Made by a program: the position numbers and the translations under genes. This document shows positions 8,968 to 38,700 of a DNA stretch of 64,000 nucleotides, one piece after another (the stretch's first letter is position 1; each line of letters begins with the position of its first letter). Below the pieces are notes generated by a model. It made no database searches, was not told where the DNA came from, and worked only from the letters and a program-made list of their open reading frames with translations. The stretch lies in NCBI RefSeq assembly GCF_000003815.2, contig NC_049985.1, positions 9,414,247 to 9,478,246 on the forward strand, read 5' to 3'. This DNA is from Branchiostoma floridae. Taxonomy: Eukaryota; Chordata; Leptocardii; Amphioxiformes; Branchiostomatidae.

Positions 8968-9332
8968 GGCTGTGTACAACAGGAAAGAAGAAATAATCAA
9001 CTTCTTAAAAGTTGTGATGGTCACGAGTCCGACTCACGACAGTATGCCTTTAATGTGTGAGACTGTTACTCATTTGATATATCTTCTACCAAATATATTG
9101 CCAAATGATATAAAGGTACTCTTAGACACTGCCTTCTTGAGTCTATAAGCATCTACTTCTTCAGTTACTTATGCTTTATCTTCTAATGTTGACAATGTTC
9201 TGCACAGATGTTCCCAAGGCAGGAGTTAAGGTAAACCAAATATTCCGTGCATGTCCAACTGCATGTATTCTATTCATAGTGTGATCTGCATCATAAATGT
9301 GACTTTTTCTGGCTTTTACTGGTAATCTGGTA

Positions 9333-9724: not shown

Positions 9725-10479
9725 AATGGACTAATCTATCATATCACCCACTTGACAGCTGTGAAACTGATACATTAATAATATCCAGTTATGATGGATC
9801 ATGATGGGTTGGTTCCTGTTGCCCTTGTCTGTTTCAAGGTTAATGGTTGTGCAGCTACACTAAGGTCATTAGTATGAGCCTTTGGATACTTTCCACATAT
9901 TTTGGAAAATGGGACATATTAGTGGATTTAATGAAATTAACTTGCATGTGTTAACTTCATTATGCTTCAATAAATAAGATGGACAACACACAGAACCTTA
10001 AACCTGCATATTATAATTTACACCACATGAACCTGTGTAGACTTTTCATTTTAAGTACAAATAAGTTCTCTGTACTTGATGCATTTCATTGACATCCACG
10101 TTGCTGATGTTAATGCCCAAATTTTCCTTATAACTGCCCATAGGCCATATCTAGGTCAAATTTATTAGTTCCAGATGCATATTAAAAAGTGACAAGTGAG
10201 CTAAAAAAAATGGCCATACAGGCTATGTAACAGTCCTACGATCTCTAACACAATTAGCACCAGCATGATGTTGACTCCTCCAGATCCAAACAACAACGTC
10301 AAATTGTTTTGTTCTTCCACTTGGCCAAGTTTCCAAACCTGAAAAACTCCCAGCACAGCCCTCCCACCCTCCAGCAGTTCTAGGCCTGGAAGGAGACCGG
10401 GCTTCTGGTTCCATCTTTCTCTACTTCATGAACTGCAAAAGTCTAAGAGAAAGATCAAACAAAGAACGACTTGACTTAC
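9725..10479 (-). other. Remainder of FAM114A first intron
   Basis: This is intronic, AT-rich DNA between the inverted-repeat element and the 5' UTR exon's splice donor (10480|10479, GTAAGT on the minus strand). I see nothing else supported here. Confidence 0.5.
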
Positions 10480-14908: not shown

Positions 14909-17900
14909 CTACAGGAAGATTCCAGCATCATCAAGGTCTATGAAGTTTGCATCTGATTCAGGACAGTCAGGAACAGACCTACAAGAGAAGGTTATTAGTG
15001 TGATTTTCTCCCAAATACAATATAGAACAAAAAATAAGATATTGATGCCTCAAGAGTACATGTACTGATAATCTTACAGGTGAAGAAGGAGAGTATTGAC
15101 AAACCTGTCTAAAGACAATGACTATCTTATCCTCACCTGTTGAACCCAGGTAGCCAGGCTCCTGTGTTGGGCTTAGGATCAGAGAACAAATCACACAGAA
15201 ACCCTCCTGATGAGCTTGGGACAGTCTGTAAAACAATGGTATAGACAGTGATAAGCAGTAGTATCGGTTTCAGCACAAAAAAACTAGCTCCTTGCCAAAC
15301 ATAATGGATTGAAAACAACTTCTGTCCATTGGAGTTTCAAAAAGGAATGTCTATCAGGATTATCTTGGGTTTTCCATAGCCTATTATCCAGTTATTTTTA
15401 AGGTTGCACATACCTCTTGTTTGAAATAATCATCTTGTTCTGTTTCTTCAGTGTGCAGGTCCCAGGGATCATCTTCTCCTCTTTCAACTTCGTTGTTTGG
15501 ATCAACAGTCTCCTTTGACTGTACATCAGGTGTCTCTTTTTCTTGACTGCTCTTTAAACCTTTCTTATCTATCTGTTCATCAAAATCAACCGGTGACACA
15601 GAAAGGTGGCAAACTGTTGCAGGGGAAACACTTGTGTTAATAATTTTGTCTTTCTGAATGTCCACAACATCTTTTACTTTTGTTTCAGAGTGCCGAAGAC
15701 CCTCTTTTGTCTGATCATTTCTCAATTCAATCTCTTCAGCAGGCCCATCTTCCCATTGGTGATCCTCCTGTAGCTCAAGTACAGAGCTGGTGGTAGAGAA
15801 GTCACTCCCAACAGATGATGTTGATAGATGCCTCTTCCTTTTCCTGCCCCTATGTCGAGGGGTTCTCATGCTTGGCCCTGAATCACAGGAGAGAATGGAG
15901 TCTTTGCTGTTGTTTCTTTGCCAGTTTCTCTTGCTCGGAGTCTTACGTTCCCTGCTCTTCATTCCACTTAACCTTCTGTAGTCCAACACGTTGCTCCGTG
16001 TGTTTCTCTTATCCACTCTTGACTGAGCTCTGGTGGTCATGTTGTAGTCTCTTGTCAGCAGCCTTACCATGGTGTTTTCTGCAGGTCTGGGAGTTCCTCT
16101 CCTCATGAACCTAGTCTTGGTGGTCTCTGTTTCATTCCCACTACTGTTTCCTGTCATTTGCTTGTCTACATGCTGCTCACTTTCAGTTGGGATGACATTC
16201 TGCCTAGTTGTCAATCCTGAGTTGTTTTCTTTATTTATAGTGTTGTCACACTCCCTTTGTTCAGCACTAGGAACTGAGTGCTGAGTGACATTCTGACTGA
16301 GCCTGTTTGTATCAACATCACCAGAAGAGCGAGGAGTATGCATGTTGGCAGATGTGTCATTCATGTCTATGATGTTTGTGTGAGGAGTCTCTGGTTGTCT
16401 ATCAGGATGGCCTGTCAACCACTCTTCTACAGCTGTCTCCACCTCCTGTGCATCTCCACTTTCTGAAAAAGAAGATGACCTTTTTCTTGTGTATCTCCTC
16501 TTTGACTTCAGTGGTGTTCCTTTCCAGAACATACTATCCCACAATTCAGATCCACTGTCCCTGGTCTCTCCTGGTGTTATTGGCAAGACATCATCCATAA
16601 CTTGTACATTGTTGCTTCTGTTGCCACTTGGGTGATATTCATGCCCTTTGATATTCTCCTTTCCATGTTGCTGTCCATGTTTAACTGCTTTATAATAGGT
16701 GGCTGTGTTAGTATCTGCATTCTGAGCAGCTTTGTTAATAATCCCTGACAGAATACTGCCAACTCTATCATGAATAGATTCTGGTGTGCTTTTTTGCTGT
16801 CTCTTTTCAGCTTTTCCAACCTCTTTATTGTCTTCTGTTAGATTGGTCTCCAAACTGTCAATAGCTGACTCTATCAAAATCTTAGTTTCACTCTCTTCTT
16901 TTTCATCCTCAGAGGCACTTGTGTTGAATGTAGCACTCAATCCACTACTATTGAGGTATTCTGTAATTGCTCTCATTGACTCCAGACTGAGAATATGTTC
17001 TCCAAAATCTTCATTTCTCTCTCTAGCACTATCTTCTTCTTTTGTGTCTCCTGCGTCTGTTGCATTTTTATCTTCATCAAGAAATTCTGTAGATTCCCTA
17101 GTCACAATTTTATCTACTAAGAGCTCTTGTCCATCTTGCTTCTCTGACAGGTTGGATTTAGCAAGGAGGTTAACCTCCTTGGATTTAGTATGTTCTGCAA
17201 CGTAGCAGCTATGTTTTTTTTCTGGTAGCTCTTCTGTCACAATATCTTGATCAAACCAATCCTCAGAGCATGAGATGCCCTCAGATTCTGAGTGGCTGCT
17301 CCTTATGATTGCTCCATTCCCAATACCTTCTGAAGTTGTTGCAACCATCTGCATTCTGGCCATGTGGATTGTCAGCAGACTTTTGGATCTGGTTGAGGAT
17401 TGGAATCTGTTCCGATCTGTTCTTGGAAGGTAGGAGTTGCTATCAGACTCCGCTTCTGAGGAGATATGTAGACTGACATGGTTGTAGGGTTTCTTTTCTC
17501 GTGTAGTAGTCCTGGAAGTCAAACAGGACCAATGGTGTAAGTCATATTTCTATTACACTGTATCGAAAGTTAGCTGTTTTACATTTTGGAATACAAATAT
17601 GTGGTTACAATCAAAACTACACGTATACATTGTAATTGTGTACGCAATGATATATGTTGATAGATTGATAAGGACTTAAATTATGTAATCACATCTGTAT
17701 GTCTGTTAGTGTTACAATTTATCAGACCCTTACCTCTTCCCTCATGACCTAAATGAAAAGCGGCCTGCAGGCCAATTTGAGCTTGTCATGAAAAAATAAA
17801 AGTTCAAACAAACAAATCTATGTGGCTTAATGACAAAAGGTACCTTTCCAATGCAATTTCTTTGGCCTTCTTCACGTCTGACTCAGTGTTTCTGACGAAT

Positions 17901-18402
17901 GGCATTTTTGTGTTTGTAACACCGTGATGTACATCTGATTCATGCTACTGTTCTCCCTCATCTGACATTGAGGTGTTTTCACGGTAACCGCTTTTGAACG
18001 GTCCTGCCAACTCATGACCAGTTATGAAAATGAGCGAAGTATTCTCAAGCTAATTTTGGGACAAAGACCACTCAGACAGTAAAATACAAGCAAATGTACA
18101 TCATGTCACAAAAGAAACAATTACGGTAAAAGTATACGTCACCTCGGATTGAGTGATTCTTCGTCTGAATGTTGCGAGGATTGCAAGGGCTGTCCTCTGA
18201 AGTTGTCCGCAACAGACGGAGAAATAGCACTAAATTCCTCCCTTTCTCTTGGGTCAAGTCTCCGCCACAATTCTTCCACTTTTCTCTGAATTTGTTTTGC
18301 GCCAAGAAATGGATACTTTCTTGCCACTTCTGGGCGTTTCTTGGTGTAGAAAACCTGAAAGTTCCTTCGCCAGTTGTTCCTTTGGAATCCTACACTGGAC
18401 AT
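14909..18402 (-). CDS. Unidentified Ser/Thr-rich protein with HMG-box-like N-terminus
   Basis: Coding exons are 18402-18143, 17511-15414, 15225-15137 and 14978-14909, all in phase, giving about 838 residues. Exon 1 encodes a compact basic domain (NFQVFYTKKRPEVARKYPF...VEELWRRLDPREREEFS) resembling an HMG box: aromatic/basic first helix, a Trp in helix 3, and a Lys/Arg-rich register. The 2.1-kb exon 2 is disordered, acidic and Ser/Thr-rich with Arg/Lys clusters such as RHRGRKRKRHLS, suggesting a nuclear protein. The C-terminus is compact and acidic (SDANFIDLDDAGIFL). I do not recognise an orthologue. A competing first coding exon at 17905-17844 gives a different N-terminus. The gene is head to head with PPME1 across about 450 bp. 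Confidence 0.75.
17844..17905 (-). CDS. Alternative first coding exon of the HMG-box-like gene
   Basis: An ATG at 17905 opens MPFVRNTESDVKKAKEIALE and splices at GT 17843-17842 in the phase that continues into the 2.1-kb exon (17511). There is an in-frame TAG upstream, so this exon cannot be an internal extension of the HMG-box exon. The 18143 donor read into it stops at once. The two N-termini are therefore mutually exclusive: 838 residues with the HMG-like domain, or about 772 without it. It may have its own promoter in the intron, or be joined as a 5' UTR/start exon after AG at about 17962. Confidence 0.55.
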
Positions 18403-18857
18403 CGTGCTGAAACCGACTGCGAACCCGTCTCTATCAATTATTTTTAATACATTTGACGCCGAGTTCCTTTTAGAATCACGACACGATCTTCCGTTTCAAT
18501 TAAAAAGTATGCAAAAGTACCAAAAATCGCTGTTGACGCGCCGCAGTCAGTGAACTCTAGACCACCCTTCCTTCAACACCGAGCAATTTCAAATATGGCG
18601 CCACTTTCATTCTTTTTACAAAGGATTGTGGGAGCGGATCTTAGTATTTCCCGAACATTGGCGAAGAGAAGATATTTAGCCACAGTTGTTAAGTGATTCA
18701 GTGGTATAAAGACATAATAGCAAATACATTACCATCAATTTATTTTTTGGATATGTATTTAAGGCCACTTTAGACAGATTTATCAGCAGACCGGTACAGT
18801 TTTTGTCCCTATTTTTCGTGTACACCCCTTAACGTAAATGGTACGTTCCAAAACAAG
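18403..18857. promoter_or_regulatory. Bidirectional promoter HMG-box-like gene / PPME1
   Basis: Two divergent start codons lie 455 bp apart. The stretch contains a YY1-like ATATGGCGCC near 18595, GGATTGTGGGAG near 18624 and an inverted CCAAT box (ATTGG) near 18657. No TATA box was seen. Confidence 0.5.
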
Positions 18858-21800
18858 ATGTCGTCCCTTCAGAAGAAAGTGATGGCGAGAGGACTCCCAC
18901 CTAGACCACCGGCTGGCACGGGCCCTGGGATGACCAGGTACGTGATCTATATCGTACCGAATTTGCAGGAATCTGATGTATGTCCTGTGCAAATTTTACC
19001 TCCCAAACGTATTTTGTAAGCAGTAAACACAGCAGGACATGGTAGATTTTTAGGGTTCTTCAGTCCCTCCTCCTTTCTGCTTGTATGGACCACACACCGG
19101 TACTAGTCCATCAGTTGAAAATTTTCACAGGTCAGAAATGCTTCAAATGATGTTTATGAATGTACAAAAGATCCCTTGTAACGTTATATTTGTGCCAGAC
19201 ATTATTATATGTTTACATGTGGTGTTTTATTGACCACCACTCTCTCAATTTATGATAAATTTCTTCACTACCCAATAAATCAATGATAATGTGTCATGTT
19301 TGATTTGTTCCTATTATATTATGTTGCTTTTTTTTAAAACCACCACAGAGCAGGTAAACTCATGGGGATGGCTCGCAGGAGAGACTACACACCAGTGTCG
19401 TGGGATAAATACTTTGAAACAACAGACCATGTCACAGTGGGTCAAGATATATCCTTCTGCAATGTTTAATATCATCTGTACTTTACCATGTAAACACAGA
19501 AATCATCATATAACCACTACACATACACAAGTGCAAACCTTAACTTATGCTTAAGAGGAAAAGAGTACTAACTAAGACTGCATCTTACATATACTGAAAC
19601 TGTAGTTCTGAAAATTTACATACTTTTGCGGTGGCTCTATTTCATTAGTTGGAGGAAAAAGAAGGATTTCGCAGAGACATAGTCTCAGCAGTGTGTTGAC
19701 TTTGTTTTGGAGAGGTCATCTGTCATCGTGAAAACTGTGAAAACAAAACCACTGCATCCTCCTAACGCCCGGTCCCCAACGGCATTTACCTTATGGGGCC
19801 CTGCTGACCCAGGGCCTACCTACGGGTATTATGATTGTCGCCACAAACAAGCTGTCAACCAATCAGAGAACAGGCCTTCCTTGGGCTTCATTTTGTCTGA
19901 AGCTGTCTCGCAAAGGCCGCTGGGAAGCTACCAGCCAATCATGTTACGTCTTACATAGCTCCTTTGGGTTCGTAGAAAAATGGCGGCGGCAAGTTTTGAG
20001 AAAGCCGTGCGAGACTTGTTTGGAGTAGATCGGCTTCATCAGCATCAGCAGAGCACGTTACAGGCACTGCTCGATGGTAGGGACGTGTTTCTCAGTGTAA
20101 AGACGGGTGGGGGAAAAAGTCTGTGCTATATGGGCTTTCCAGCTGCAGCGAGAGCGGAGACACAGCTACAGTCTGCCCAAACACAAGCCCGCGCACAACG
20201 CCCTTCTGGAGAGGAGTTCGTAATAGTAGTAAGTCCTCTCAACGCAATCATGAGAGAACAGTGTGACAAGCTGACCTCCCTCGGCCTGACAGCGACGTGT
20301 TTAGGTTTGAACGCTGTCGAGACAAACGATGTCCTCGCTGGAAGATTCCAGTTCATCTACACCTCTCCTGAGACAATTCTCAACGACCACAGATTCAGAG
20401 GGATGTTACGATCTGAAGCGTACAAGGGTCGTGTTGGACTGATTGTGATCGACGAAGCACATACTGTTGTCCAGTGGTAAGTCACACTTTTGGCACAGTT
20501 GGAACGGTTGACCTATGGATAATGATAAATCATGGATATATGGGGGAATCAATTCAATCAAGCAAAAACAAAGTAAACCGAATAGTTTTACGATTAATAT
20601 CCATTTCAGATATAGAATATAACCTTTCAATGCAATTTGAAGGGATTGAAAATATGATTTAAAGTTCTCTAGCAGCTATAATTTAAAACTCCTTGCTGTA
20701 TGTCAACACATATATATGTATATGGAAGTGGTAACCAAACCTTAGGTCTAGGGAAAAAATGTTGTGTCTCCTGTTTCAGTCCTGAAAAAATAAGGGTCGG
20801 TAGGACAAGCAAGTAGTGTTTTACTTCGATAGGAAGAAGGCTGAATAAAGATTCTAACTGGAAGTTATGTGACTCCACAAACCCCCTCCCCCCCCCAAAA
20901 AAAAAATTGGGGTCAGCAGGGGTTTTTCTAGGGTAGGTAGGGAACACAACATTTTTTCCTAGGCCTTATAGATACTACTTAGCTACCCAAAATGTGTACT
21001 ATGTAGCAAGTTATGTCCAAGTCTATTCTATTCTTCTCACATCATACCAACTGTTTGACCTATCAAATGTGCTGAATGTGCAGCCAACAATTCCATTTTA
21101 TTTTTCTGTATTGACTTATTTTAGGGGCCAAGCAGGAGATGATGCTGGCAGTGATACTCCCTTCAGGGAATGGTTTTCTAAGTTAGGAGAGCTGCGTTGC
21201 CTTCTGCCAGGTACACCTCTGCTTGCAGTGACTGCAACTGCCAGCAAGAAACAAAGGAAAAAGATCCAGAAGCTACTCACTATGGAGGGATGTGTGGAAC
21301 ATGTAGAAAATCCAGACAGGGGAAACATCAAACTCCACGTGTCCCATGTGCCCAGCAGCAAACCACTCGCAACAACATTTGACTGGCTTCTGCAGCTCGT
21401 TAGAGGAGAGGATCACAGGTGCCCAAGAATACTCGTGTTCTGTAAGAAGATTGATGACTGCTCAAACATCTATCAGTATGTGTTTATGCCCAATCTTACA
21501 GCAGATCAGTTGAAACTCGTGCAAATGTACCACTCTCACACACCAGAGAGGATAAAGGTAAAGATTCGCGAGGACATGGCAGTCTCTGATGGGAACATAC
21601 GTGTACTCCTGTGCACGACTGCGGCCAGCATGGGCACCAACTTTGCCGGTGTGGACAATGTTGTCAACTTCGGGCCACCACAAGAGCTGGACACTTTGCT
21701 CCAACAGCAAGGCCGGGCAGGAAGAGGGGGCAGTCAGGCACATCATCTCCTGATTTTCAATAATAGGCAGCTCAGGAACTTGGACGTAGAAATGTTGGTT

Positions 21801-24800
21801 TATGTCAGGAATGAGGACAATGTGTGCCGCCGGCAGCTGTTGTTATCTCACTATGGTTCGTGCTGTGATGATGGAAGAATTCGTCATGCCTGCTGTGACG
21901 TCTGCACTACAGCCTGCCAGTGTAATACTTCAGAGTGTAAGCAGTTTAACCACATCGCACACAGTGTTGATACTAGTTCTGAAAGTGACAGTGACAGTGA
22001 ATCTGAAACAGGTCATGTCTCTGACCTGGAACTACATGCTTTGAAAGTTTCTTTGCAGCAGTACAGGACATTGCTTAATGAGCAGGTCAAGTCAGGTAGT
22101 GTATCAACTGTCCCAGAAGTCACTCATGGTTTCACTCAGAAGGTCATTGATTCTGTTCTAACTCAGTGCAGGAAGTTGAAGTCATCTGATGATGTCCTGG
22201 CTATGTGTGGAGTGTGGTCACATGGGCAAGCCAGTGCAGTATTCGACATAGTGAGCAGCATCTTTGACATTGACCATGATTGGCATGAAGAGACTGTAGG
22301 TGACAGTGACTACACTGGATTGGATGATTAATAGATTAATTACGTTTTTATTGTTTGTTTTTGCTTGTATTTGGTAGAGTTATAGACTCTGTAATTGTAG
22401 CTACAGACTTAAAATGATAACAGGGACCAGACAGACAAGTTTGAATTTTAGATTTTGACTTTATTTCAATTGACCAGTTCTTAGTGATGTCAAGAAATCC
22501 AAAATATGGGTTTTGCTGTTTCAGTAGTAAGAGATCTCGTGTCTCAAACTGCCTTGCTAATGCACTTACTAAATGACTTAGATTCTTCCATGTAGTATAG
22601 CACATATTTGGACATTGTAATTTGTAGCCAAAAGGTTATCATTTTACATTGATCTACATGTATTACCAGTACAACAAAGGGACACAATCAAAATGCTGGT
22701 CTTCTAACATTTGTGTAGGATGTGCCTTTGCTGGGCATATTCTTTTCGGTGAGGTATGCATGATTTATATTATACTGGTGCCATGTTCATTTCACACAAT
22801 GACCTCAAATAAGAAGGAAATCTCTTCATGTACAATTTTTCAGACTACATGTATATTGATTTGGCACAAGATGGCTAATTGAAAGCTGATGACATGATCT
22901 GTATGTCTATGGGTTTTGCTTGGAATAGAGAAAAATTACATTGTTCTTTTTGACAGATACCCAGTATCGACATGTGTTGTACATGTATTATAACCTGAAC
23001 ATCCTGGTTATGTGCCTTGTTTTGGACCGCCCAAACCACCCTATTTTCGCATTACAACTGCTACAAAATAAGCTACATGTGTATACATAAGACTAGCCTT
23101 CCCTGACAGCAGCTTAATCAAACACTGCATGCTAGTCACTACCACTATGTTTTATTGTGGTAAACTGTCAACCAACTGTACTAAATTCTTTGCACTGCCG
23201 TCCATTCTACAGTTATTTTTCTGTCATCTTTCCCATTTTTGATACCTGCATTAGGTGGAGGCGACACTTTCCACATGTCAAAGACTTGTAATGATAACAC
23301 ATTGTACCATGTACATAACCTTTCATGTTTTGGGATGTAAATAAAGAAAAAATGTTTGAATATCAATGTCTTGAGTCAGCTATGATTGTATTTCACTCCT
23401 TGTTTCCCATGATGCCAGGGAGAGTTTACTTGCAATCTTTCTTATAATTTATTTCACTCTCAGAATTTAAATATACTTATATAATATCATATAGGCCAGA
23501 GCAAGTAAATGTCATGGATGACATCCTCTACACATTACAAATTTAATGCAATGGGCAAAAAAAGATGGTGAAAGGAAAAAAAGACTAAATTCTCAACATA
23601 GATACCAAACATTACATAACATGACTATTACTATTGTCGCTTTCTCTACAGCACTTTAGGGTACCACACTAGTGTCACTTAGTAGCGTCAATTCCATTAC
23701 TACTTTATACAGCAATATAAATAACAAAAGTGTACAGTGACACATACCACAAACCAAAGTGAATACGATAGACTATTACAGTCGTGCATTTCGCACCATT
23801 CTGATCGAGGCAATTTGTTTTTGCTCTTTCACCCAGTGATGAAACTTTTCAAAGTCCATTCTTGCGAGTGGGTCCTTGTACTCAGGAAAAGTCCTGTAAA
23901 CACTTGTGCAGTCTTGCACATTCGAGTCCAGGATTTCATCCAGCATTGTCTGTATGTCCTTCTCCTTCCTGGCCACAGTTCGCTCTCTGGATTTCACATG
24001 ACTCTTGCATTTCTGCTGTAGGTTTTTGACAACCTCACTTACAACCTGATTGGTTTTACAGATTGTTTGTGCTGACTGAAAGCTCTTGTTTGATCCTTCC
24101 GTCTGAAGCCTTTTCTTTATCTCACCCACCTGCAGCTCAACAGCGTTGTCATTGGGGATATTTTTCCCAATACCCCCCTGCAGGTTTACGCAAGTGTTCC
24201 ACTTATAGTCGAAAGCTGCAGAAGGGGTGAGGATTGCCATCTCATATGCCAACATCCGCCAAAGCCAGATGCAGTACTTGGTATGCTTGAGGCTATATGC
24301 ATAAAGCATTTCCAGCTTTGCATTCCTGAACACTCTGTCTCCATCGCCCATCTTATAGCTATCCTCGGTATCTCTTCGCAGGAAACCCATGCGGCAAAAG
24401 GATGAGATTACGGAAATGGCACTCCCGGTGCTGCTCTTTTTTCTACTGCCATTGTCTTCCTGATTGACAGGTGCTGTGTTCAGATTGATGTTGTGCTCTT
24501 TCTCTAGGTGTTTGGTGAAGTTCTTCTCACGCACATATTCCTTGGCACAATGGGCACACCTGAACTTGCCATTAGGTTGCTTCATTGTGTCCAAGAGGTG
24601 CTGTCTATTGTCCAGAGCCTGTGTTTGTTGACTCATGTCATCAATGTCCATGGCCTCCTCTTCGTCTGGTTCCAGGAGTTGCTTTCTAATCTTCCTGACC
24701 TGCTCAAGTAGCCACGGGTACTTGGGCTGGGCTGGTGGGATGTTGACTACTGGCCTCCCATCCATGCTGGAAATGCCAAAGTGACGGCATGCTGTGGCCA

Positions 24801-27800
24801 GTGTGTAGGCATCCAGACAGTCATCCACAAAGGCCTGATGTGATCTGAAATGCATAAATTTCAAGCTATTAAAACATTTATGTAATGTGTTATGTTCTGA
24901 AGAAGGACAGTTTTTCCTTCCACATACAGTCTGTCCTACATACAGAATGGCAGCATGAAGTTTAGTTGTTTTAGTCCTTTGCTCAGGGGAGGGATGTGGA
25001 GTGAAATATCCTTTGTTTGCACACAAATCCTAAATCTAATTCTAATTGCACATGTAGTTGCTGGCCATACAGAAGTCTCTGTACTTTTGCCAAGGAAATT
25101 CCTCATTTGTGAATTACCTGTAAGCTTTTGTCACAGACTTTGGCCCTTCAACATCTCGCCTGTTTATGATATTCCTCAGGGAATATGGCAGAGCCCTATC
25201 TCCAGCCACTGGTTCCTTGTAGAACTCCTGGTACATACCCTGTATGGGCGCATAAAAGTGTTGAGTGATATTAAACATAAATACAGTATTATTATTCTAA
25301 GAGAGATAACCCTATCAATAGATTAAGATAATGTCATCATTGATTCCTTTCAAAAGTCTAACCTCTCAAGCATGTCTGGCACATTTATAAAGGACATTGT
25401 TCTGTGTTTGCACACTAGAAAGACCTCTTCCTAGAAAATGTGTTGGGACTGGTAAAATGTTTATAGTGGTCAACATCAAAAGCAAATTTGATATAATTTT
25501 CATGATAACATAAAAGAACCCCCCACCCCAAGCACTATCTGATAATTGTTTTGCAGAAAACACAAAAAAAAAAACAGGACAGGGGACAGATACATGTATG
25601 TTACCATAAGAAAGTTCATGAGGCGATGTAGTCCTTCAGGTCGGTGTATGATTCCAGCGCAGGAATCACTCTCATTGTCAGCATTTAGTAGCGCAGCCTG
25701 TCCTGAAAATGCTCTCTCGTTTGTCAAGACGTCACCTCCAAGCACAACACGTTCTATCACCTCTGCATGGTCTCCAGGTGTACGGGGCACTACTAGCTGG
25801 TTCAGCCTCTTCAGTATGGTGAGAATTCCATCAGAACTGTTCTCTGGAGCGTCAATCAGTTCTACATTAAGGACTTCACTTCTCTGCGATGACTCCTGTA
25901 GGTGATCGTGAAGTATGTGTGGTGGCATGCAGTCAGCATATGGCTTCAGAAAGTCCAAGTACTTGACAAGTACCCTTGCAATATGGAACTCTGTGTTCTC
26001 TTCATATGCCTGTAGTTCCTGCTGGGTCAGGAGCCAGGACACTGTTTCCATGGTAAGGATGTTTGCCTTCGGAGAATCGTTTGGAAGCTGAGGGTCTACA
26101 ATCCTCTTCTTGGCAACCAGCACAAGGAACCAGTGCCAACTCTTTCGTTGCCGGTCCATGGTCATAGCCGATGGTTTCTTCATGATGTCCAAGTTGTCTC
26201 CAAGAACTTCAATAGATGTGACGGGTTTGGCCTTGATCCTCTCCAACAGCTTCTTGTTGTACGCCTTGGTTCTTTTCTCTTCAGCCATTGTGCTTGACGA
26301 ATGTCTTGTGGCGACTGTCAGTGAAGATGCAAAACTGCCAGGGAACCAGGTGTGACTGACTGTATGCACTGTCTCCATGGCACCTTCTGGCTCATCCTAG
26401 CCAGCAAACTGCTTTGCTGGCTAAGATGAGCTTACAGATGTCATGGCTGGTTCTGCCTCCATAGAAAGTGCTGTTTGACTACTTGTCCTCCTCTGTGCAG
26501 AGGGCTTTCTCAAAGAGGAGTCATGGTGTTGGGTTGATGTTGCAGGGGAAGTGTAAGTAGAACAGATGAAAGGGTAGAGATTACAGCTGGGGTTCGTGAT
26601 TGGCATACTGAAACCTGCATCATTTGGGAGACGATACAGTGATTTGTTAGGTTCCATGTCATTCGGGGTTGACTGTACTGCAGGCATACTGCTGGTAGAC
26701 AGTGACATCCGTACTGATGGAATACCATCATATTTGCTTGTGTCACTAGCGGATGATACATACCGTTCAGCTGAAGCCTTGAACTCTTTCTGTCGGACAA
26801 AGTCCCCAACAGTTCTGTCCATCATCTCCTGATGTTTCTGTAGCATCTCTTTCCTCTTCCTGTACAAGGTTGAGGGGGTGACTGTTACACCCATTCGCTG
26901 TAGGACACTGATGGACTGAATGAAAAATGTACACAATTACTACAATAGCATATCAGTTAGTATCCATCACATAATCCTTATCCCTCATATCCAAGAACAT
27001 TTGATTTAATTACTTCTTGGGGTGCAGTGCAATTTAGTCAACATTTATAGACATAGATCAGCATACTGGATGAAGATATTAACAAAATCAATGTAATGCT
27101 GGTTTAATACAGCATATGAGTGAAGGCTTGGTGACAGGGACAATCAGGCAAGATGCAATTTGCAAACTTACAACTTCAGGCTAAAAACAGCTTCAGCTTA
27201 GTTACTATGTATATTGCATGCAGAATGTGTAAAATTTGTACTGACATCAAAATAGTCAACATTAAATGTCATGTTTTCTCACAGTCACAGTCATAAATGT
27301 TTAAAGAACTATCATCTGATCAATACATTTCTTTGTGCTCTGTACCTCATCTGTTGTGCCTCCCTTTTCCAGCACCATGCCCACTGCCATTTGGAGACTG
27401 GCCATCTTTGGGTTCCTGTGGTGCAGAAGGGCACTGCCAGCAAGTCCAATGGATGGGTAGTGCCTTTCTTCTCCCTTGTCCTGTACACTCCTGTTCTTGT
27501 GGGTGTTGCATGCTACTGCTTGAAGAACTTCATAGAGGAGGGGAGTTCTCTCCTTCCACTCCCTGATTATGGTGTCCCAATCAATGTTCAGCAGGCCATC
27601 AACGTCAGTCTTCCTTAGCACTGATGGCTCCTTGTCACTGCATAATGCTGTGCATTCCTGTGACAGCTTGTTGCATACTTGACTGTGCAGCAACGGCCTG
27701 AGGTTGGGATCTTTGTACAAAATGCCTGCTAGTCTCTTATCGGGTTCACCTTTGGCAAGAGCACGGAGGTACTTTGCAGTACTGTCATCCTTCACAATCT

Positions 27801-30800
27801 TTGTCATTTTTTGAGACGGGTAGGTGATGACCACCTGTAGAAATATACAAAACCAGGGTACTGCTTAGCAAGAGTTCTGACACTGACTCGGGTACAGCGA
27901 ATGACTCAGTAGACTACCGGTAGTGGTTTACTACAACATTGTATGCCCAAAATTGTTGTCTGGAAACAACCGGTACAGTTGACAAGAACACAGTTGATAT
28001 TTTAGCCATGTAGAAACTTTCAAATGATTTATGATTAGATAAGGTAGTCTATTTCATTAATGGCCAGGAAACGTTCCATGTCATTTCAATGACAACGTGA
28101 GTGTCCTATTGTGACTTTCACATATTTATCAGTAACCAGGGCTCAGCATACTCCCATACAAACAACACATTGCCAGAAAGAGATTATAAGAAACCTGTTT
28201 ACTTCTCTGATGTTGTTCGCATCCTACTAATGCAGTATAAGTTATAACACGGTTACTATTGTTAGGACTATTTGTACAAAATTTTCCAAATAACAGAAAA
28301 GAACTGTTAGCAACTTGAAATTTTGCAGAATAAAAAGTATTTCGAGCCCTGAGCAGACAGACATAAAGCTGGCTCACCTTCACTGTGCCAATGGGGTCCT
28401 GAGCCTGGGTCCACCCAATCTGTGTAGATTTGTGACATACTCTAGACTCAGTCTGCTGTACAGCAGTGTTGGAAGCCTGCGTGGGAAACAATTGATCAAC
28501 ACGTATAAGTATACAAATAAAACTTAAAAAATTTGGCAAGCACGTGAAGTTGTCTACTAATTATTACCGAACACCCACAGAGACCAGGTGTCACTAAATT
28601 TAAGAGCGGACCAAACTGTTCAAACTACCAGGCTGAAACGACTCTACTCTACTCTAATCTTGCCATGCTTTGGTTCCGCCATTGGTTCAGCCAAATCATG
28701 TATCTCATCTGTCATAAAATATTATTAACTGTCATGTTTGATTACAAATGTTTTAGTACAGAGAGTCATAGGAAATAGGGCACAATTCAGCCTATGGCTG
28801 CTAGACTCCTATTGTAACCATAAACCATTTTTGATTGATTGATTCATTGATTGAACTGAAGATACAGGCAAAATATACAGTACACTTACCGTTGCAGCTG
28901 GTAGAATGGGGCGGTAAGTCTTCTCAGGAGTTCGCAGCAGACTCCGCTTCACTGTCTTTTTTGGAGTGGGCGTTTTCACCAGTGGTCTCTTGGCCCCGAC
29001 TTTCACGGGAGTAACGTGAACAGAAACTCCGACATTGGAACCAAACCGGGTGTCTTGTTTTGGTCGCACAGTTTTCTTCGGAGTTGGCGTCTTGACCCCG
29101 GCTGCAACGTTGCCCTGGGCATTGGGACCAAAACAGGTAGCTTGTTGTGGTCGCAATTCCGCGATCAACGCTTCCTTTTCCTCTTTCAGTCGGTGAAGTC
29201 GTGTCGTTAAGTCTTGGTCAATTTTCTCCAACTTGTTGACTTTATTAAAGCAAGAACGGCACACAGTACACGACAAACCTTTTTGAGTCCAAACGTGCCT
29301 ATCGGGAGGAAATCCCAAGATTTCTTGAATCTGTGGGTAGCGTGGAAGGGCAGAAGCGCTGAATATTGATCGAAAGTTCCTGTCGTAGATGGCCTTTCCA
29401 CAAAATAAACAGCTTTTGGAGACACGTTTCGCCATGTTTGTTGTTGTGGCAGCCGCCATCTTGGAAACTTTCTAAACTAGGCGCTGATTGGCTGGCGCCA
29501 TATAAGGGCAAGCTCATTAATATCTAATAAGCAGGGCGGGTAATACTGCCGACAAAAGGGAAGGAAAGCAGAGTCCCGTCAGGAATAAATGACTGACGGT
29601 ACTCTGCTATAGGAGAATGAACCACTGAGATTTACTGTACTTGTTATGTCCTTAACACTGTCACACATTTTCCGTATTTACCGAGCGGGATCAGAAGGAC
29701 CAGTTCTGCTGCTCCTGCATGGTGGTGGCCACTGTGCACTGTCCTGGGCCTGTCTGTCAGTAAGGACAACTTCAGCTGGATATTACATATGAAATGTTCA
29801 CAAGAAATAACAGAGAGAGGTTGCATGTTGCATGAAATATTCTGTAGAGTCAGAAGCGCCTCTTTGTTGTTTGTCATTGATATCAACATGACAGAATATT
29901 GAAATCATATTGGGTAGCTTACAAGTACCATCTTAATTGCAAAGGCACATTATACATGTTAGGTTATACTACATAATTATTATAACAATACATGAGCTGA
30001 TACAGTAGAATTACATATTCTGTTATTCCTCAGTCTGAGAGAGCTCATAGCTGTCCCAACTTAGGTTTGTAATTTGATGGTAAGCTCCATGAACACAAAT
30101 TTCCTGAAAGTTGTACTTTCTCATATTGTATCTTTTCTTGTGAATATTTCAGACAATAGTAACCTCACTTGTGAACTGCAGAACCCTCGCTGTCGACCTT
30201 AGGGGACATGGTAAGCTGCAACCTCTATTCCTGATATTTCAAGTTTTAAAAAGCAATAAGTTTTACTTTAATGATTCGTTCCTTACAGAAATTGTTTCAA
30301 GTAAGAAAACAGCTACCTGGTTGTTTCTTTTGCTGTTTGTGTTAACTTTTTTTTTACTCCAATAAATTCTATTCATTTAAAGGGAAATTCTTTCTCTCCT
30401 TATAGGTGATTCTCAGACAAAAGAAGAAGAAAATTTGTCAGCAGACCAGCTGGCAGAGTGAGTTCATGTATTGATTTGTTGAGGGTGCTCTTTCCATACT
30501 GTATAATCTAATCAACCTGTGATGGGAGACGTCTCACTAATATTACATTATACCTAGTGGTAGTAAATTCACTTCAGTTTCTCAAGCCTTATCAGCTTAA
30601 TCTTATTCGTTATTCCTTAGTGGCACAATGCTGTCACATTTCAGCCCCCAATTGGAGATATCCTGTGTAAAAATGACTTTATAGTTTGTCAGGTTTACTG
30701 GTACATTTTGCTGATGTTTTGTTTTATTTCATTTGCATTGATTTTTCAAGCCTGACTGCCACCAAGTTTATGATTCTTTTGGACCAAATACTGCTCCAAA

Positions 30801-33800
30801 GCATATATCCCAATGATATACATGTAATTCATATTCCTGATTTCCCTGACATGCTCTGTCTTGTGTATATCAAACTGTGACTGCACAGTATTTGTTTAGA
30901 AAATTTGTCACATGTAGGTTATTAAGTGTTATCTAGTGCATAGATAGTTGTAACACATTTGCAGCTGTAACTTTAATATTAATTGTACATACAGAATGTA
31001 CCAATTTGTTTGTGACATTTGTTTGACAGGGATGTTGGAAACTTAGTAACTGCTCTGTATGGTGATGAGCCACCACCCATTATTCTTGTTGGACATAGGT
31101 AAGCAAAGTCACTATTTAGTTGTGTGACCTTTATAAAGTTGTATATTCTCAATTGGGACTACATCATTATTAGTAATATTACATCAAGTTTGACTAAGTG
31201 CTCAGCTCTAGGCATATGATTTTTTAAAAAACATTTTGGCAAATCAAGTGTAATACATATGAGGCAGTACAGACAGAACCAACTTATTCCAGTAGCTTGA
31301 GGTCTAGATACTATATACATGTGTATTTATATGTACAGTTTATATCTTTAGTTTGACAATATCATCTCCCATTTTTCAGTATGGGTGGTGCAATAGCCAT
31401 CCACACAGCTGTTCAAGAGAAGGTTCAGTCCCTTATAGGCATGGTTGTCATTGATGTAGTAGAAGGTGGGTGTTGACAGAATGTTGTGCTTTTGGTAGTG
31501 ATGAATCTTTGACTAGCAATGTTTATTACCTCTGCTAGAAGTTTATGTTTTCAGTAGCATTTGTGTATATGTCTGTGCGTAGAAGACCAGCATAACTCTA
31601 GTTTTAATTTGCAGTTGTACATGTAGGTAGGGTTTCAAACTTACAATATATCAAAGAAGTATTCCAAATTCATCTTACCTGGTAGTTCATTTGATATATA
31701 GAAACATGATTGTGTAGTGTTTAACAGCTGTATATATTTCATTATTTTTAAAATGTGTAGGCACGGCACTAGACGCCCTCCACAGCATGCAGAGTTTCCT
31801 GAGAGGACGGCCCAAGTCTTTCCCCACTCTGGAGGCTGCCATTGAGTGGTGGTGAGTATGTCATAAACAGTCTGTCACATGTATAATGCCTACAATTAAC
31901 CCTTTTTATTTCTCTGCAACAAGAGATGTTACATTTGTAGTTCCTTAGAATTGTCTTAGTAGGTCAATTGCCAAAGTAGTTAACATTTAAATGTATTACA
32001 AAGATGACAAGTAGAAGTAAAATGTGCCTTATGCCTTAATGTATCCATATAAAGACCATGTATTTCTGTCCCATGCTAGTGTGAGAAGTGGACAGGTGAG
32101 AAACCTGGAGTCAGCTAAGGTCTCCATGGTTGGACAAGTAAAAAAGTGAGTGTGTTTTTTTTTACAAGTGTCAGACATGTTACAGACTACCCTGGAGTTA
32201 TCATGATTGTATAAAAAAACAGATAAAAATTTCAAAGATGTTCTTCCTTTACTTCAAATATTAAGAACATCATTTCTTATCAATAATTGTAAGTATTGAG
32301 TTGTCAAGTTTCAGTTTTTAGAATGTTCATGAAAAGTAAATTGTATTATATAATGATACTGATTAGTAATAGCTTCGGACATATCTGATAAAGATTTGAG
32401 CACAAGCGTAATTGAACTATGCAAAATATATATTTTGGTTACAATGATGGCAATGATAAAGAGATAATAAAGTCTAAATTCTTCTTCTATCTCCAGGACA
32501 GACACCCAGGAAACAGGCACGTCCCTGTTGGAGCGTGAGATTGCCAATGAACCCAACGTTGGAGTGAGTCTCAGTGCTGATGCTATAGTAGAGGAGGAGG
32601 AGCCCACCTCCCCCTCCCAGGACATGCCTCCCCCTGCTTCTCCTCCGCCCTCTATGACAGAGGTAAAAGTTTCACCTGACAGATTTGGGCCAACATTTGC
32701 CAGCAAATGCACAATGTTTCCCTTTCCATCTTTTCTAGCATATGTATTATTTTACAAATACGCTCCTTGCTGTCATAGATCTACCTTTCTTCATAAAACT
32801 TTGTACATGTCATTCAGTTTGTATTCATTGACTTTTTTCTTTCTTTCCCTTGTTTCTGTGTTTCTGTCTCTTCACTACGGTACGTCTACGGTACTACCTG
32901 GCAGCGGGCTGTTTTTGTAAGTTTTTGTTTTCTGATGCTTAAGACATCTTTTAAAAAACAATGGTGTGTTGGTTGTTGACAGTGAATAAATGACATTTGT
33001 AAACTACTCTTTACTCCTTACAGGCACCTCCAGGGTCTTACACATGGAGAATAGACTTGTCCAGTACTGAAAAATACTGGAAAGGTTTGTACCTTTCTTA
33101 CAGAAAGGTTTTTATAGATGATAAAAGTAGTTCTCTGATTCTAAAGCCTCAATCTACTCATGTTGAAGCCAATACAAAACTAGATACATGGCTCAGCCCA
33201 TGTCATGTATTGTCAAGGTGATGAGATTACATCAATTAATCCATGTGTAAAACATTTCTTCATGTTGTTTTCTCAGGTTGGTTTGCAGGGATGTCGCAAC
33301 TCTTTCTGTCCTGTAATGTTCCAAAGATGCTGCTACTTGCGGGTAAGAATACACACCAATGAAACATTTTGGTATTGGAAAAAAACATGAAAGATCATTG
33401 CTATTTGTGTGTGTCGTATTTTGTTGTCCATGGTACTTTTATACTTTTACTGAACATGTTAATGTGCTTGTCAATGTTACAGGAGTTGATCGTCTGGATA
33501 AAGATCTCACCATTGGTCAGATGCAAGGTGTGTACTGATGTGTGTTTACCAGTATACATGTATGTTTAACAACACTACAAATAGATATTTTGTGCATGCC
33601 TTTCCCATCAGTTGTCTCACATTAAGCTTGAAGAGGTTTGTACATGTTGTAAGGAATTTTCACTTCTGTTGGTTAGGCAAGTTCCAGATGCAGGTGTTGC
33701 CCCAGTGTGGACATGCAGTCCATGAAGATGCCCCTGACAAGGTAACAACAGACTACTGAAGTCTGACGTGTGTTTGTGTGTGTTTGTGAATACAGTACCA

Positions 33801-34331
33801 CAATTTCAAACAGCATGTTCCTTCATGTCTTCTTGCCTTGTATTTGCCACTTGTATGTCTGCCAAAATGAACATGTTCTCTTCTTGGTGCATCTTTTGCA
33901 GGTAGCAGAAGCCCTGGCCACCTTCATGGTCAGACACAGGTTTGCAGAGGCAACAGCAGATTTTAAAAGGTAGAAAAACCTACAGGACCTTATTTGTCTC
34001 CATAATCTGTGATATGAACCCATCACTAGCTTTTACATGTACTTGTTTTAAGTTTTGTTCTATTAGGACTCAGATGTGTTGAGCTATTTCAACACGGCAA
34101 AATGAATTGTAAGGAGGAAAACCTATCTAGGATGTATGATTAATCTACATACTAAGATGCCTGCATCTAAATTTAACAACTCTTCTAATAATGAAATTGG
34201 CGTAGTCTCCCTCCTCACTAACTTTAGGTGACCACAAATCAAAAAAAGTTAACATGCTCTTAAAGGTTTATCATCAAAAACTGTTTTCTTAACTAAAATT
34301 TTTTTTTTTCAGACCATTTCCTTCCTGCTGA
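18858..34331 (+). CDS. PPME1: Protein phosphatase methylesterase 1
   Basis: Sixteen coding exons: 18858-18937, 19349-19448, 29667-29759, 30153-30210, 30406-30457, 31030-31098, 31380-31465, 31761-31851, 32080-32145, 32497-32662, 33024-33084, 33277-33342, 33483-33527, 33677-33741, 33902-33969 and 34313-34331. All phases agree, predicting about 394 residues (human 386). Landmarks of the alpha/beta hydrolase are GPVLLLLHGGGH, the nucleophile elbow GHSMGG (Ser codon split 31098/31380), the Asp in VIDVVEGTA and the His in QCGHAVHEDAPDK. PPME1 removes the C-terminal methyl ester from PP2A catalytic subunits and inhibits the enzyme. A short last exon gives the family-like tail PFPSC; reading through its donor instead gives a TAG at once. 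The Glu/Pro-rich insert in exon 10 matches a variable acidic loop. Intron 2 is U12-type and carries two other genes. Confidence 0.97.
19449..19979. promoter_or_regulatory. Left flank and promoter of the nested RecQ-like gene
   Basis: This is 5' intronic DNA followed by a locally GC-richer stretch. A CCAAT box within CCAGCCAATCA (about 19930-19940) lies about 40 bp before the ATG, and the ATG sits in a YY1-like ATGGCGGCGGC. A second ACCAATCAGAG lies near 19858. A small hairpin (GAGAC/GTCTC) is near 19672. I could not find a terminal inverted repeat matching the right flank at 29460-29640. Confidence 0.4.
19980..22331 (+). CDS. RecQ-like SF2 DNA helicase, nested in PPME1 intron
   Basis: Two exons, 19980-20476 and 21125-22331 (phase 2 junction inside Trp), give 567 residues with no disruptions. 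SF2 motifs run in RecQ order: Q-region QHQQSTLQALLDGRD (21-35), Walker A KTGGGKSLCY (41-50), IVVSPLNAIMREQ, DEAH box VIDEAHTVVQWG (156-167), TATAS motif III, ILVFCKK motif IV, CTTAASMGTNFAGVDNVVNFG across motif V, and arginine-finger motif VI QQQGRAGRGG. A Cys-rich zinc-binding segment (CCDDGRIRHACCDVC) follows. There is no HRDC or exonuclease domain and the protein is short, unlike the cellular RecQ1/BLM/WRN proteins. With the convergent DUF6589-like gene beside it, it is more likely transposon-borne or transposon-derived. The single intron carries a MITE. Poly(A): AATAAA at 23340-23345. Confidence 0.88.
20744..20965. mobile_element. MITE family A, copy 2 (222 bp, internally deleted)
   Basis: It has the same A-rich terminal inverted repeats as the copies at 9333 and 42692 but lacks about 165 bp of the interior. 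The deletion joins GGGTCGGTAGG directly to ACAAGCA; both breakpoints carry TAGG in the full copies, which suggests a microhomology-mediated deletion. It lies in the RecQ-like gene's intron. Confidence 0.8.
22332..23775. other. Convergent 3' UTRs of the RecQ-like and DUF6589-like genes
   Basis: No coding exons were seen. The RecQ-like transcript probably ends after AATAAA at 23340-23345. The opposite gene has an AATAAA (minus) at 23453-23448. The two 3' ends would then lie about 100 bp apart. Confidence 0.5.
23776..29459 (-). CDS. DUF6589-like zinc-finger protein, probable transposon gene
   Basis: Seven coding exons: 29459-28890, 28476-28378, 27834-27346, 26915-26436, 26396-25605, 25239-25118 and 24844-23776. 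All phases agree (mostly phase 0), giving 1206 residues. The N-terminus has a Cys cluster (C17, C20, C64, C67, C70) like a ZAD or other treble-clef finger, then a coiled coil (about 74-102). Mid-protein, GGDVLTNERAFSGQAALLNA and HRLMNFLMGMYQEFYKEP recall the GDQLT..RA...A and HAK/MNFL blocks of DUF6589 proteins. The ALPYSLRNIINRR...HQAFVDDCLDAYTLATA block is also typical. A C2H2 finger (FRCAHCAKEYV...HLEKEHN) and a basic helical tail follow. I know of no enzymatic function for DUF6589. It forms a convergent pair with a RecQ-like helicase inside one host intron. Translation could also start at Met9. The DUF6589 assignment is from memory. Confidence 0.75.
26390..26431. repeat. 42-nt hairpin enclosing the 39-nt intron of the DUF6589-like gene
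   Basis: Two 19-nt arms (26390-26408 and 26413-26431) pair at all but one position around a 4-nt loop. On the minus strand the donor GT is at 26435-26434, just outside one arm, and the acceptor AG is at 26398-26397, inside the other. The removed segment (26397-26435) is 39 nt. Without removal, an in-frame TAG would end the protein. Confidence 0.8.
28137..28351. mobile_element. 215-bp element with CAGGGCTC inverted ends
   Basis: The left end is CAGGGCTCAGCATACT. The reverse complement of the right end is CAGGGCTCGAAATACT, 13 of 16 identical. The CAGGGCTCGAAA form also ends the element at 56011-56329. It has no ORF, and no target-site duplication was recognised. It sits in a DUF6589-like gene intron, 26 bp from an exon edge. 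Confidence 0.45.
29460..29648. promoter_or_regulatory. Promoter of the DUF6589-like gene and right flank of the nested pair
   Basis: On the minus strand the ATG lies in a YY1-like AAGATGGCGGC. A CCAAT box in CCAGCCAATCA lies about 35 bp upstream, the same arrangement as in the RecQ-like gene. A 15-bp-stem hairpin (29568-29607) lies between this promoter and the U12 branch site. Confidence 0.5.
29568..29607. repeat. Hairpin near right end of the nested gene pair
   Basis: GCAGAGTCCCGTCAG (29568-29582) and CTGACGGTACTCTGC (29593-29607) pair over 15 bp with one mismatch around a 10-nt loop. It may mark an element terminus or be an independent foldback. Confidence 0.6.
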
Positions 34332-35723: not shown

Positions 35724-38700
35724 TTATCTATCACCAGTCTTTTTCAGTGACTCTGCTTCTTTGGATTTTGAAGGTTTTAACCAAGAAGACCAAGATCTGA
35801 AATAAAAGGATAAAATGTTAAAGATAATTAGAAACAGCAAACATGAACTTGCAAAACTAGAAAGTATGTCACAATGTTCTGCAGGTTCATTCCCTTAAAT
35901 GGCACCTGAACTGGTTTCAAAGGTTTTGGCTTTAAGTTAAACAGCACTGACTGGTCACAGTACCAGACACTCCAAAATCCCTGTACCCCTCCTGGAACTC
36001 TGGGAGACAACTACTAAAGGAAAAAGAGGTAGGGAAGAGTGATGCAAACCTACAAGAGCCATGGAGGACAAAGTGTTGTGGAGAGGGCTCTCGGGATTAA
36101 AAGTAGTATTAAGAGGGGAAATTGGGGTGTAAGAGTACTTCAATGTATGGATTGATTGATATTTCCAATGTGCAGCCTTATGAACCTTTTAAACAGTTCA
36201 GGTAGTTTGCAACACTTAAGCCATGAAAACCCCCAGAGGTGATACTTGGAAAGACCATTTAGTTATGTCAGTCACAGATGAAGATCCTCTTACCCTTCTT
36301 CCTCCTGTTTGGTATCCAGTTGTTGTGGACCCCCAGCCCCAGGCATGAATACTGCAGGCTCCTGACCCACTTTTTCCCTTTTGGATCGGTCTGAATCAGA
36401 ACAGGCGAAATACAGGTCAAACTTAACATTAAAAGAATGGTCCTACAATGTCCTATGGCTATTTCATTTGTCCCAACACCTATGAAATGACAACAAAATC
36501 ATAATTATTATACAGACAACTTTATGATTGACATCTTTTAAATTACGAGCATGTATCGAATTTCCTTAAAAAGTAACTTAAAAAGTAGTTTATTACATTT
36601 GTATACATATACAAATTGGACAAACTTACGTGTCAGGACAATTGTAGTTGTCTGTCGTCCATTGAAGCCATGGTCCTTAATTAGCATGTCGCTTGTGCGC
36701 GGCATGCTCTCCAAGCTCTTTCGAAGTAAACAGTCGGAAGTGAAAGGAGGCTCCTCCCACTTCCTGTGTTCCCGTGAGTGATGACGTCAGTTTTTTAGTA
36801 GCAACAGTGCTGGCCGAAAACTTAGGGTGGGAAACTAAAAGCGAACCCTAGCAAGATACTAGGGCGGGAAGGACCATGGCTTCAATGGACGACAGACAAC
36901 TACAATTGTCCTGACACGTAAGTTTGTCCAATTTGTATTTGTCTTCGTCCATATCAGCCATGGTCCTTAATTAGCATGACTTTGAAGCCGAGGCCAGCAC
37001 TGAACAACCAAAGTGGAAACTAGAAGAGTTAGAAGGTTTATTATAGAACCTCTCGAATGTAGTAGCATTGGCCCAATTTGCCGCCTTCAAAATATCCTTA
37101 ACAGAAACGCCAGCCTTGAAGGCAGCTGAAGCTGAAGCGCTTCTGACTGAATGGCCTGAGTACTCTTTGATACCTGCTTCAGACAACATTTGCTTAAGCC
37201 AACGGGCAATAGTGGAAGATCCAACCGCCTTATGAGGCTTGACTAACCCCCGAAACACCCGAGAGTCAGACGAGGAGCGAAACCTAGCAGTTCTCTCTAA
37301 GTATGCCCGCAGATAAGTGACCGGACACAACACTTTGTTGTCAAACTTCGCCACCCACAAAGAATGTGAAGGTTTGTCTGGACGTGACGTTTTTGTGACC
37401 TTATCAATAACAAACAAAATCCCCTCTTTAGACGAAGACATGTGACTTGTACTGAGCAGAGCTAGCGATTGTTCCCGACCAGCCGACACTAGCGCCACTA
37501 GCATAGCAACCTTGAAGGTGAGCTGCTTCAAACTGAGGCACTTCGCAGGAGACCACTGTCTGAGGAACTTCAGAACAACAGAGACATCCCAAATAGCAAT
37601 ATGCTTGGGCATGGGCGGTCTAAGCTCAAACACTCCCTTCATAAACCGGGAGACAAGGGAGTGTGCTCCTACTGGTTTTCCCTCTACATTGACATGAGTG
37701 GAAGATATTGCAGATCTATAAACATTGAGTGTTCTATATTGGAAACCCGTAGAAAACAAATGATGAAGAAAATCCAGTACCTTACTCAGAGGTGCATAAA
37801 CGGGATCCAAACCCCGAGAACGGCTCCAGCGAGCCCATTTCCTCCACGCTGACGCATAGAGTCCTCTGGTCTTAGGACGCCAGGAGGCGAGGAGGATCTC
37901 TGTAACTCCTTCCGAAATGTCGAACTCTCGGAACTGACGCCGGAGACAGTCCACATGGCCATACGCAATGTGCTGCTCAGCGGGTGCAGACTTCCGTCTC
38001 CTGGTTGTGTGAGAAGCGACGGGTACCGAGGCAGCCGTACTGGTTTTCTCACGGACATTTCTAGTATCAGTGGATACCATGCCGCTGTGTCCCAAATCGG
38101 TGCCACAAAGTGCACTGTTACTTGGTCCTGGCGGACCTTCCTCAAGACCCTCTCGATGATCTTGAATGGGGGAAAGGCATACAGAGCTTCCCACTGGTTC
38201 CAGTTCATCGTGAACGCATTCGTCCCCAGACTCTCTGGGTCTGGCTCCCAAGACACAAACTTGGGTAGTTTCCTGTTGAGTCGGGATGCGAAGAGATCTA
38301 CCGCTCCCGCTCTGCGCAGACTGGGACACATCTTCTGTATGGCCTGAAACACTTGTGGGCAGAGTGACCACTCTGTTGTGCGAGCGAAGTGTCTGGACCT
38401 GAAGTCCGCTCTTACGTTGGTTACACCCGCCACGTGATCGGCTGACAACAGGATGCTTCTCTCCACGCAGTAATCCCACAGGCTTAGAGCCAGATTTGAA
38501 AGGGCTGGCGACCTTGTGCCGCCTCGGCGGTTGATGTACGAAACTACGGTTGAGTTGTCCGATTTGACTCGTACTGTACAGTTCGCCCTGTCCTTGCAAA
38601 AGGCCTTCAGTGCCAGAAAGACTGCCAGCATTTCCAACTGATTTATGTGCTGTCCGCGTTCTGCGCGCGACCAACGCCCGCCTGTGCTCACGCCATTTGC

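Follow-up and report, generated by a model that had tools for sequence, protein, structure and literature searches.

Within a 64,000-nucleotide stretch of the Branchiostoma floridae genome (NCBI RefSeq assembly GCF_000003815.2, contig NC_049985.1, positions 9,414,247 to 9,478,246 of the forward strand; hereafter the window, whose numbering is used below), we identified a 9.9-kb element with inverted ends that is very probably a DNA transposon of recent activity. It carries two convergent genes, one for a probable transposase (a 1206-residue protein of the Pfam family DUF6589) and one for a RecQ-type helicase (567 residues). Its ends, the target site duplications around it, its gene models, its copies elsewhere in the genome and the pairing of DUF6589 and RecQ genes at other loci were all observed. 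An earlier note on this DNA had proposed a large helicase-carrying DNA transposon, and this is borne out by the precise ends and the duplications, by another large copy and 253 exact matches to the left tip, and by the RecQ/DUF6589 pairing elsewhere.

The element is flanked by an 8-base-pair (bp) duplication, AACCACTG, which is intact at 8/8 positions. Both inverted ends start with CATYCTCCTA, giving termini of the form 5'-CA...TG-3' (the tips are CATCCTCCTA and CATTCTCCTA), and the start codons of the two genes lie 225 and 160 bp inside their respective tips. The earlier note had set the bounds at 19640-29640, which overshoots the ends by 115 and 21 bp, and had found no terminal inverted repeats (TIRs), while imperfect inverted ends are present together with the duplication; target duplications, which it suggested looking for, are found around the window element, around a large copy on C12 and around every short copy inspected (see below). 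The scan that found the ends gave weight to duplications of 8-10 bp, a design chosen after we had learned that AcademH transposons make duplications of 9-10 bp. Its best flank candidate was the AACCACTG pair (score 15, as compared to at most 12 in five control region pairs), and since the weighting was chosen after consulting that literature, the proof of the ends lies in the genome-wide matches and not in the scan score. Among 23,355 identical 8-mer pairs lying 1-20 kb apart in the window, the AACCACTG pair ranks second on inverted-end score, behind one that involves two copies of a different repeat.

We searched the window's own genome (513 Mb, 431 contigs) for copies. The exact 20-bp left tip occurs 253 times and its reversed control not once. 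Using a left-end query that overran the boundary by 20 bp, we scored the best 40 of 501 candidates (96-100% identity): 38 of these 40 begin at query positions 16-21 (21 corresponds to window position 19755) and finish at 218-220, about 200 bp inward, the remaining two being the window locus and the large copy on C12. The right-end query overran the boundary by 21 bp, and 38 of the 40 matches scored (the best of 421 candidates) stop at query positions 180-185 (180 corresponds to window position 29619); 38 begin at query position 59, including 37 that stop at 180-185. The match of the window to its own sequence extends to query position 201. Flanks were inspected at 19 loci (L031 to L049), of which L031 is the C12 copy and the other 18 are short copies of 373-375 bp with both ends present. 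Perfect target duplications were found in 18/18 short copies (15 of 8 bp, three of 9 bp), and a flank-swap control among them gave 0/306. With the window element and the C12 copy included, 17 of the 20 duplications measured in this family are 8 bp and three are 9 bp long. The 18 short copies are mutually 99.0% identical on average (97.9-100%), a mean that is biased towards young copies because they are the best-scoring end of the list and not a random sample. Inverted ends with duplications at independent insertions, and multiple copies at unrelated sites, place the element among DNA transposons of the TIR type.

The second large copy (C12, about 1149224-1157985) has its own duplication, TGAGCAAC, and differs from the window copy at 51 of 8052 compared bases (99.4% identity). 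The differences comprise 14 in 3968 coding and 37 in 4084 non-coding bases; at codon level there are 7 synonymous and 6 non-synonymous changes in 1100 compared codons of the DUF6589 gene, and 1 synonymous and 0 non-synonymous in 222 of the helicase gene, too few for any claim. These data bear on a domesticated gene pair, i.e. a former transposon with decayed ends whose two genes selection retains for a function in the host. Both frames are open in the 9.9-kb element and changes are fewer in coding than in non-coding sequence, as domestication would predict, and the latter is equally expected of copies from an active source. However, such a pair is expected to be single-copy and without fresh ends, whereas the ends and the duplication are intact, a second large copy sits at another site with a duplication of its own, and the short copies are nearly identical to each other. 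We therefore regard domestication as very unlikely, and the earlier suggestion that the element is old, immobilised and kept by selection does not agree with its intact duplication or with the identity levels of the C12 and short copies.

The RecQ-like gene consists of two exons separated by a GT-AG intron. The partner gene lies on the minus strand in seven exons, from 29459 to 23776, with six GT-AG introns and 1206 codons without an internal stop, and the two genes stand tail to tail. These models reproduce exactly the two intact tail-to-tail genes and the lengths given in the earlier note, and its descriptions of a RecQ-like protein without the usual accessory domains and of a DUF6589-like partner with zinc fingers hold as well: no RQC or HRDC domain was matched by Pfam in the 567-residue protein at E values up to 0.1, and the partner matches DUF6589 and has a C2H2/BED-type finger in its last exon.

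Pfam assigns the DEAD and Helicase_C domains to the 567-residue protein, and the RecQ family model TIGR00614 scores it at 184.4 bits (E value 3.3e-54), which does not reach the curated cut-off of 219.8 bits; judged from these profiles, the protein is RecQ-like but divergent. In the PDB search, bacterial RecQ was the best match (113 bits), followed by BLM (98), RECQ1 (90), WRN (87), RECQ5 (68) and RECQ4 (48), and the similar distances to BLM, RECQ1 and WRN point to a protein for which no single cellular orthologue is indicated. A RecQ-like cysteine cluster can be seen by eye after the helicase core; the PDB search aligns that segment at only -2.0 bits. A scan of viral contigs with the RecQ-like helicase found no relative. 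We note that the short repeat inside the helicase intron (Table 1) is also found in the C12 copy, with small indels.

The joined region of the 1206-residue protein matches the Pfam model DUF6589 (PF20231) at 85 bits (E value 5.9e-24, cut-off 27), and no other transposase model of Pfam matches it at E values up to 1. The Pfam entry describes a 'family of unknown function' and states no function, and a search of an open library of 5.39 million papers found no mention of DUF6589 by name. When aligned with the other DUF6589 proteins of the genome (disregarding row L002_292, which is in the wrong reading frame; L005 has no usable frame), D613 (in GDNLDI), D768 (in GGDVLT) and E1087 (in NIPNDNAVE) stand opposite D, D and E; an insert resembling a zinc finger separates the last two of these acidic residues. 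E1087 is E in 7/7 locus proteins spanning the position, and D768 is D in 3/3 (near-identical copies of one family). In an in-silico test, alanine was put in place of nine residues, one at a time, and the score under the DUF6589 model was compared with the 85.0 bits of the unaltered sequence. Five swaps were costly, with losses of 5.5-8.2 bits: D768 (78.3, a loss of 6.7), H803 (76.8), N1071 (79.5), D1083 (78.1) and E1087 (76.8, a loss of 8.2). Four were mild: the E of TNERA (84.6, -0.4), D858 (84.0, -1.0), H1038 (82.5, -2.5) and E1029 (86.6, +1.6). An EGLH (xxxH) motif before the insert resembles the C/DxxH signature, which is described for several transposase superfamilies in PMC9587614, but differs in its first letter. 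From sequence comparison, the 1206-residue protein is most likely a DDD/E transposase with the candidate site D613-D768-E1087. Among viral contigs, neither the part of the protein encoded by the last exon nor DUF6589 motif patterns revealed a relative; the sole motif-pattern match, on viral contig L001, is phage-like, appears unrelated by eye and was rejected.

The pairing of the two genes was then assessed over the whole genome. The DUF6589 search gave 55 matches at 47 loci (82/82 candidates scored), and the RecQ search at least 33 matches at no fewer than 26 loci (32 of 254 candidates scored). A DUF6589 locus lies within 15 kb of 13 of the 26 RecQ loci listed (gaps of 1.9-12 kb), as compared to an expected fraction of about 0.003 per locus, and of 12 of the 25 that remain without the window locus; the search for further loci with both genes that the earlier note had called for thus refutes the possibility that they never co-occur elsewhere. 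Ten of the 13 listed pairs are convergent, three are on the same strand and none is divergent. That two unrelated host genes are neighbours by chance has next to no probability: it is favoured by the other 13 listed RecQ loci, which have no DUF6589 neighbour, and otherwise by adjacency alone, and against it stand the excess of pairing over expectation and the fact that one pair of ends and duplications encloses both genes. Some of the 13 solitary RecQ loci are presumably cellular RecQ genes.

A tblastn search revealed an additional convergent pair, of which C9 and C10 each carry a nearly identical copy. A distant family, whose protein is 22-27% identical to that of the window, has large copies on C17, C11 and C193 that are nearly identical to one another; here the helicase gene lies upstream of its partner, and both are on one strand. 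The C17 and C193 copies have ends of the form TAGCCTGG.../...CAGACTA and are flanked by duplications of 9 bp (CATACGGGA and GAAGTATAT, respectively); the far end of the C11 copy was not recovered. Further distant relatives or fragments (among the best 38 of 76 candidates) are on C18 (with stops), C16, C6 and C14, and ends were looked for and not found for the C18 relative. L054, L055 and L056 are near-identical copies of a second RecQ and DUF6589 family and contain an internal array in which matches are offset in steps of about 51 bp. A locus on C3 (L069, 732-4799, minus strand) encodes a member of the DUF6589 family, at least 1355 residues long, with a CXC (tesmin-like) region just below the Pfam cut-off. 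XPG/PIN-like motifs seen by eye in this protein suggested an XPG nuclease, a lead that the searches do not back (no Pfam nuclease even at an E value of 10 and no PDB nuclease match).

Several observations weigh against a recently active two-gene transposon. The inverted ends are imperfect (22/40 bases pair ungapped in a hand count), and a first end scan, requiring 9 matched inverted bases and allowing duplications of 2-10 bp, found nothing above control (best 13, controls up to 14). One right-end match, C11:15685188-15685328, continues past the boundary to query position 201 at 91% identity; nesting or rearrangement of a copy could explain it. Among the large copies seen, both frames are open in the window copy only, and the C12 copy has two N stretches and 5 extra nucleotides in helicase exon 1 that shift the frame. 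The weakest spot of the DUF6589 gene model is intron 4, which at 39 nucleotides is unusually short and without whose removal the 1206-residue protein splits; according to the difference list, this palindrome is identical in the C12 copy. D613 is not covered by the match to the Pfam DUF6589 model, and it is D in the C17 and C11 proteins, copies of the sole other family that spans the position. Nor are the listed pairs independent, as at least C17, C11 and C193 carry near-identical copies of one family.

For the transposon, we propose that the DUF6589 protein would bind the ends, perhaps via its N-terminal and internal zinc fingers, and would cut and join DNA via the D613-D768-E1087 site, the target being cut with a stagger of 8, sometimes 9, bp. 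The RecQ-like protein may play an accessory part as a helicase, by opening up the palindromic ends or a strand-transfer intermediate or by aiding repair after integration, and the short copies, which consist of the two ends only, are presumably mobilised in trans by proteins of the window element or of sister copies. A broader proposal, to which we give an even chance, is that an entire superfamily of RecQ-carrying DNA transposons uses DUF6589 as its DDD/E transposase (in this genome with 8- to 9-bp duplications and with convergent to same-strand genes), and that the window family, a distinct 8-bp lineage, is still active or was so until very recently and moves some 250 or more short copies. 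These results suggest a likely function and candidate active-site residues for DUF6589, and the cleanly duplicated short derivatives make a natural system in which the part played by a RecQ helicase in transposition could be studied. They also carry a warning for annotation: in animal genomes, a RecQ-like gene of this kind can be the cargo of a transposon and not a repair gene.

Table 1. Features of the transposon in the window (a dot marks a feature without strand).
Feature	Position	Strand	Details
Whole transposon	19755-29619	.	9865 bp; end scan, anchored end alignment, genome-wide matches stopping at or within a few bases of the ends
Left target site duplication	19747-19754	+	AACCACTG, 8 bp
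Right target site duplication	29620-29627	+	AACCACTG, 8 bp
Left inverted end	19755-19812	+	CATCCTCCTAACGC..., imperfect, about 56-58 bp
Right inverted end	29562-29619	-	CATTCTCCTATAGC..., imperfect, about 56-58 bp
Subterminal palindrome, right end	29567-29608	.	8+7 bp stem, one mismatch, 10-base loop (single-strand fold, RNA parameters)
Segment common to short non-autonomous copies, left	19755-19954	+	200 bp
Segment common to short non-autonomous copies, right	29498-29619	+	122 bp
RecQ-like helicase exon 1	19980-20476	+	gene model, Pfam
Short repeat inside helicase intron	20742-20972	+	relatives at 9331-9730 and 42690-43088 (three partial copies in window)
RecQ-like helicase exon 2	21125-22331	+	gene model, Pfam
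DUF6589 protein exon 1	28890-29459	-	190 residues; zf-AD-like cysteine region, 21.6 bits, under Pfam cut-off of 28
DUF6589 protein exon 2	28378-28476	-	gene model
DUF6589 protein exon 3	27346-27834	-	parts align to distant DUF6589 loci at 27-32%
DUF6589 protein exon 4	26436-26915	-	gene model
Intron 4	26397-26435	-	candidate intron, 39 nucleotides, palindromic
DUF6589 protein exon 5	25605-26396	-	candidate catalytic D613 (26196-26198) and D768 (25731-25733); conserved H803
DUF6589 protein exon 6	25118-25239	-	gene model
DUF6589 protein exon 7	23776-24844	-	C2H2/BED-type zinc finger; D1083; candidate catalytic E1087 (24136-24138)

As for the surroundings, exons of PPME1 (protein phosphatase methylesterase 1) are found on the plus strand at about 29700-34000, with the element just upstream. 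An exon at about 18.86-18.99 kb, which has no PDB match, is one that we take to belong to PPME1, and the element likely sits inside one PPME1 intron. Positions 15384-17549 and 18139-18495 of the minus strand, probably the strand opposite PPME1, hold a long frame rich in serine and acidic residues and an exon that by eye resembles an HMG box. Overlapping long frames at 36974-41389 (minus strand) have by eye the look of a DIRS-type retrotransposon (reverse transcriptase, RNase H and tyrosine recombinase).

The earlier note had named Academ-H and Kolobok as possible relatives; AcademH is indeed the best match in kind, short of full agreement, and Kolobok is excluded by the duplication. That the element is a KolobokH transposon, i.e. 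a Kolobok transposase with a RecQ helicase, is highly improbable. KolobokH does carry a RecQ helicase, and in Kolobok-1_CCri the transposase and the RecQ helicase are likewise on opposite strands (PMC9587614). However, according to the same source, Kolobok elements have 4-bp TTAA duplications and 5'-RR...YY-3' ends and KolobokH is reported from fungi only, whereas the duplications here vary in sequence, are 8-9 bp long and flank CA...TG ends; none of AACCACTG, TGAGCAAC and the 18 short-copy duplications is TTAA, and among transposase candidates in Pfam the 1206-residue protein matches DUF6589 alone at E values up to 1. Fungal subtelomeric RecQ-like helicases (Agaricus and others, PMC7473861) share a RecQ core without the usual extra domains; they are subtelomeric gene families, and the available part of that source mentions no partner or transposon ends. 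The 1206-residue protein is a clear member of Pfam DUF6589, and differs from the family as described there in being part of a mobile element and having candidate DDE residues. Since Repbase held 265 Branchiostoma floridae families by 2015 (PMC4455052), the window family may already be among them.

The closest resemblance is to AcademH. Academ is described as having one helicase lineage and one nuclease lineage, with the 9-10 bp duplications mentioned above in AcademH (PMC10045372), and a RecQ helicase has been reported within Academ (PMC3627910). Both AcademH and the window element combine a RecQ helicase with a large probable DDD/E transposase and make long target duplications, and AcademH is reported from animals and fungi (Kojima 2020, as cited by others), the host here being an animal. 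A narrower version of the transposon reading, which we consider moderately probable, makes the element a true AcademH member, with DUF6589 as the Academ transposase and 8 bp as ordinary lineage variation. This would fit the reported RecQ helicase and the distant DUF6589 and RecQ family on C17 and C193, whose two duplications are 9 bp long; the XPG-like region seen by eye in the C3 protein would recall the nuclease lineage, but neither Pfam nor PDB finds a nuclease there. The window family, in contrast, has mostly 8-bp and not 9-10 bp duplications, and the comparison with AcademH covers helicase content, host and target duplications. We therefore file the element as a related variant and not as AcademH itself: by analogy, it appears to be a relative of AcademH that would work in the same way, short of a proven member.

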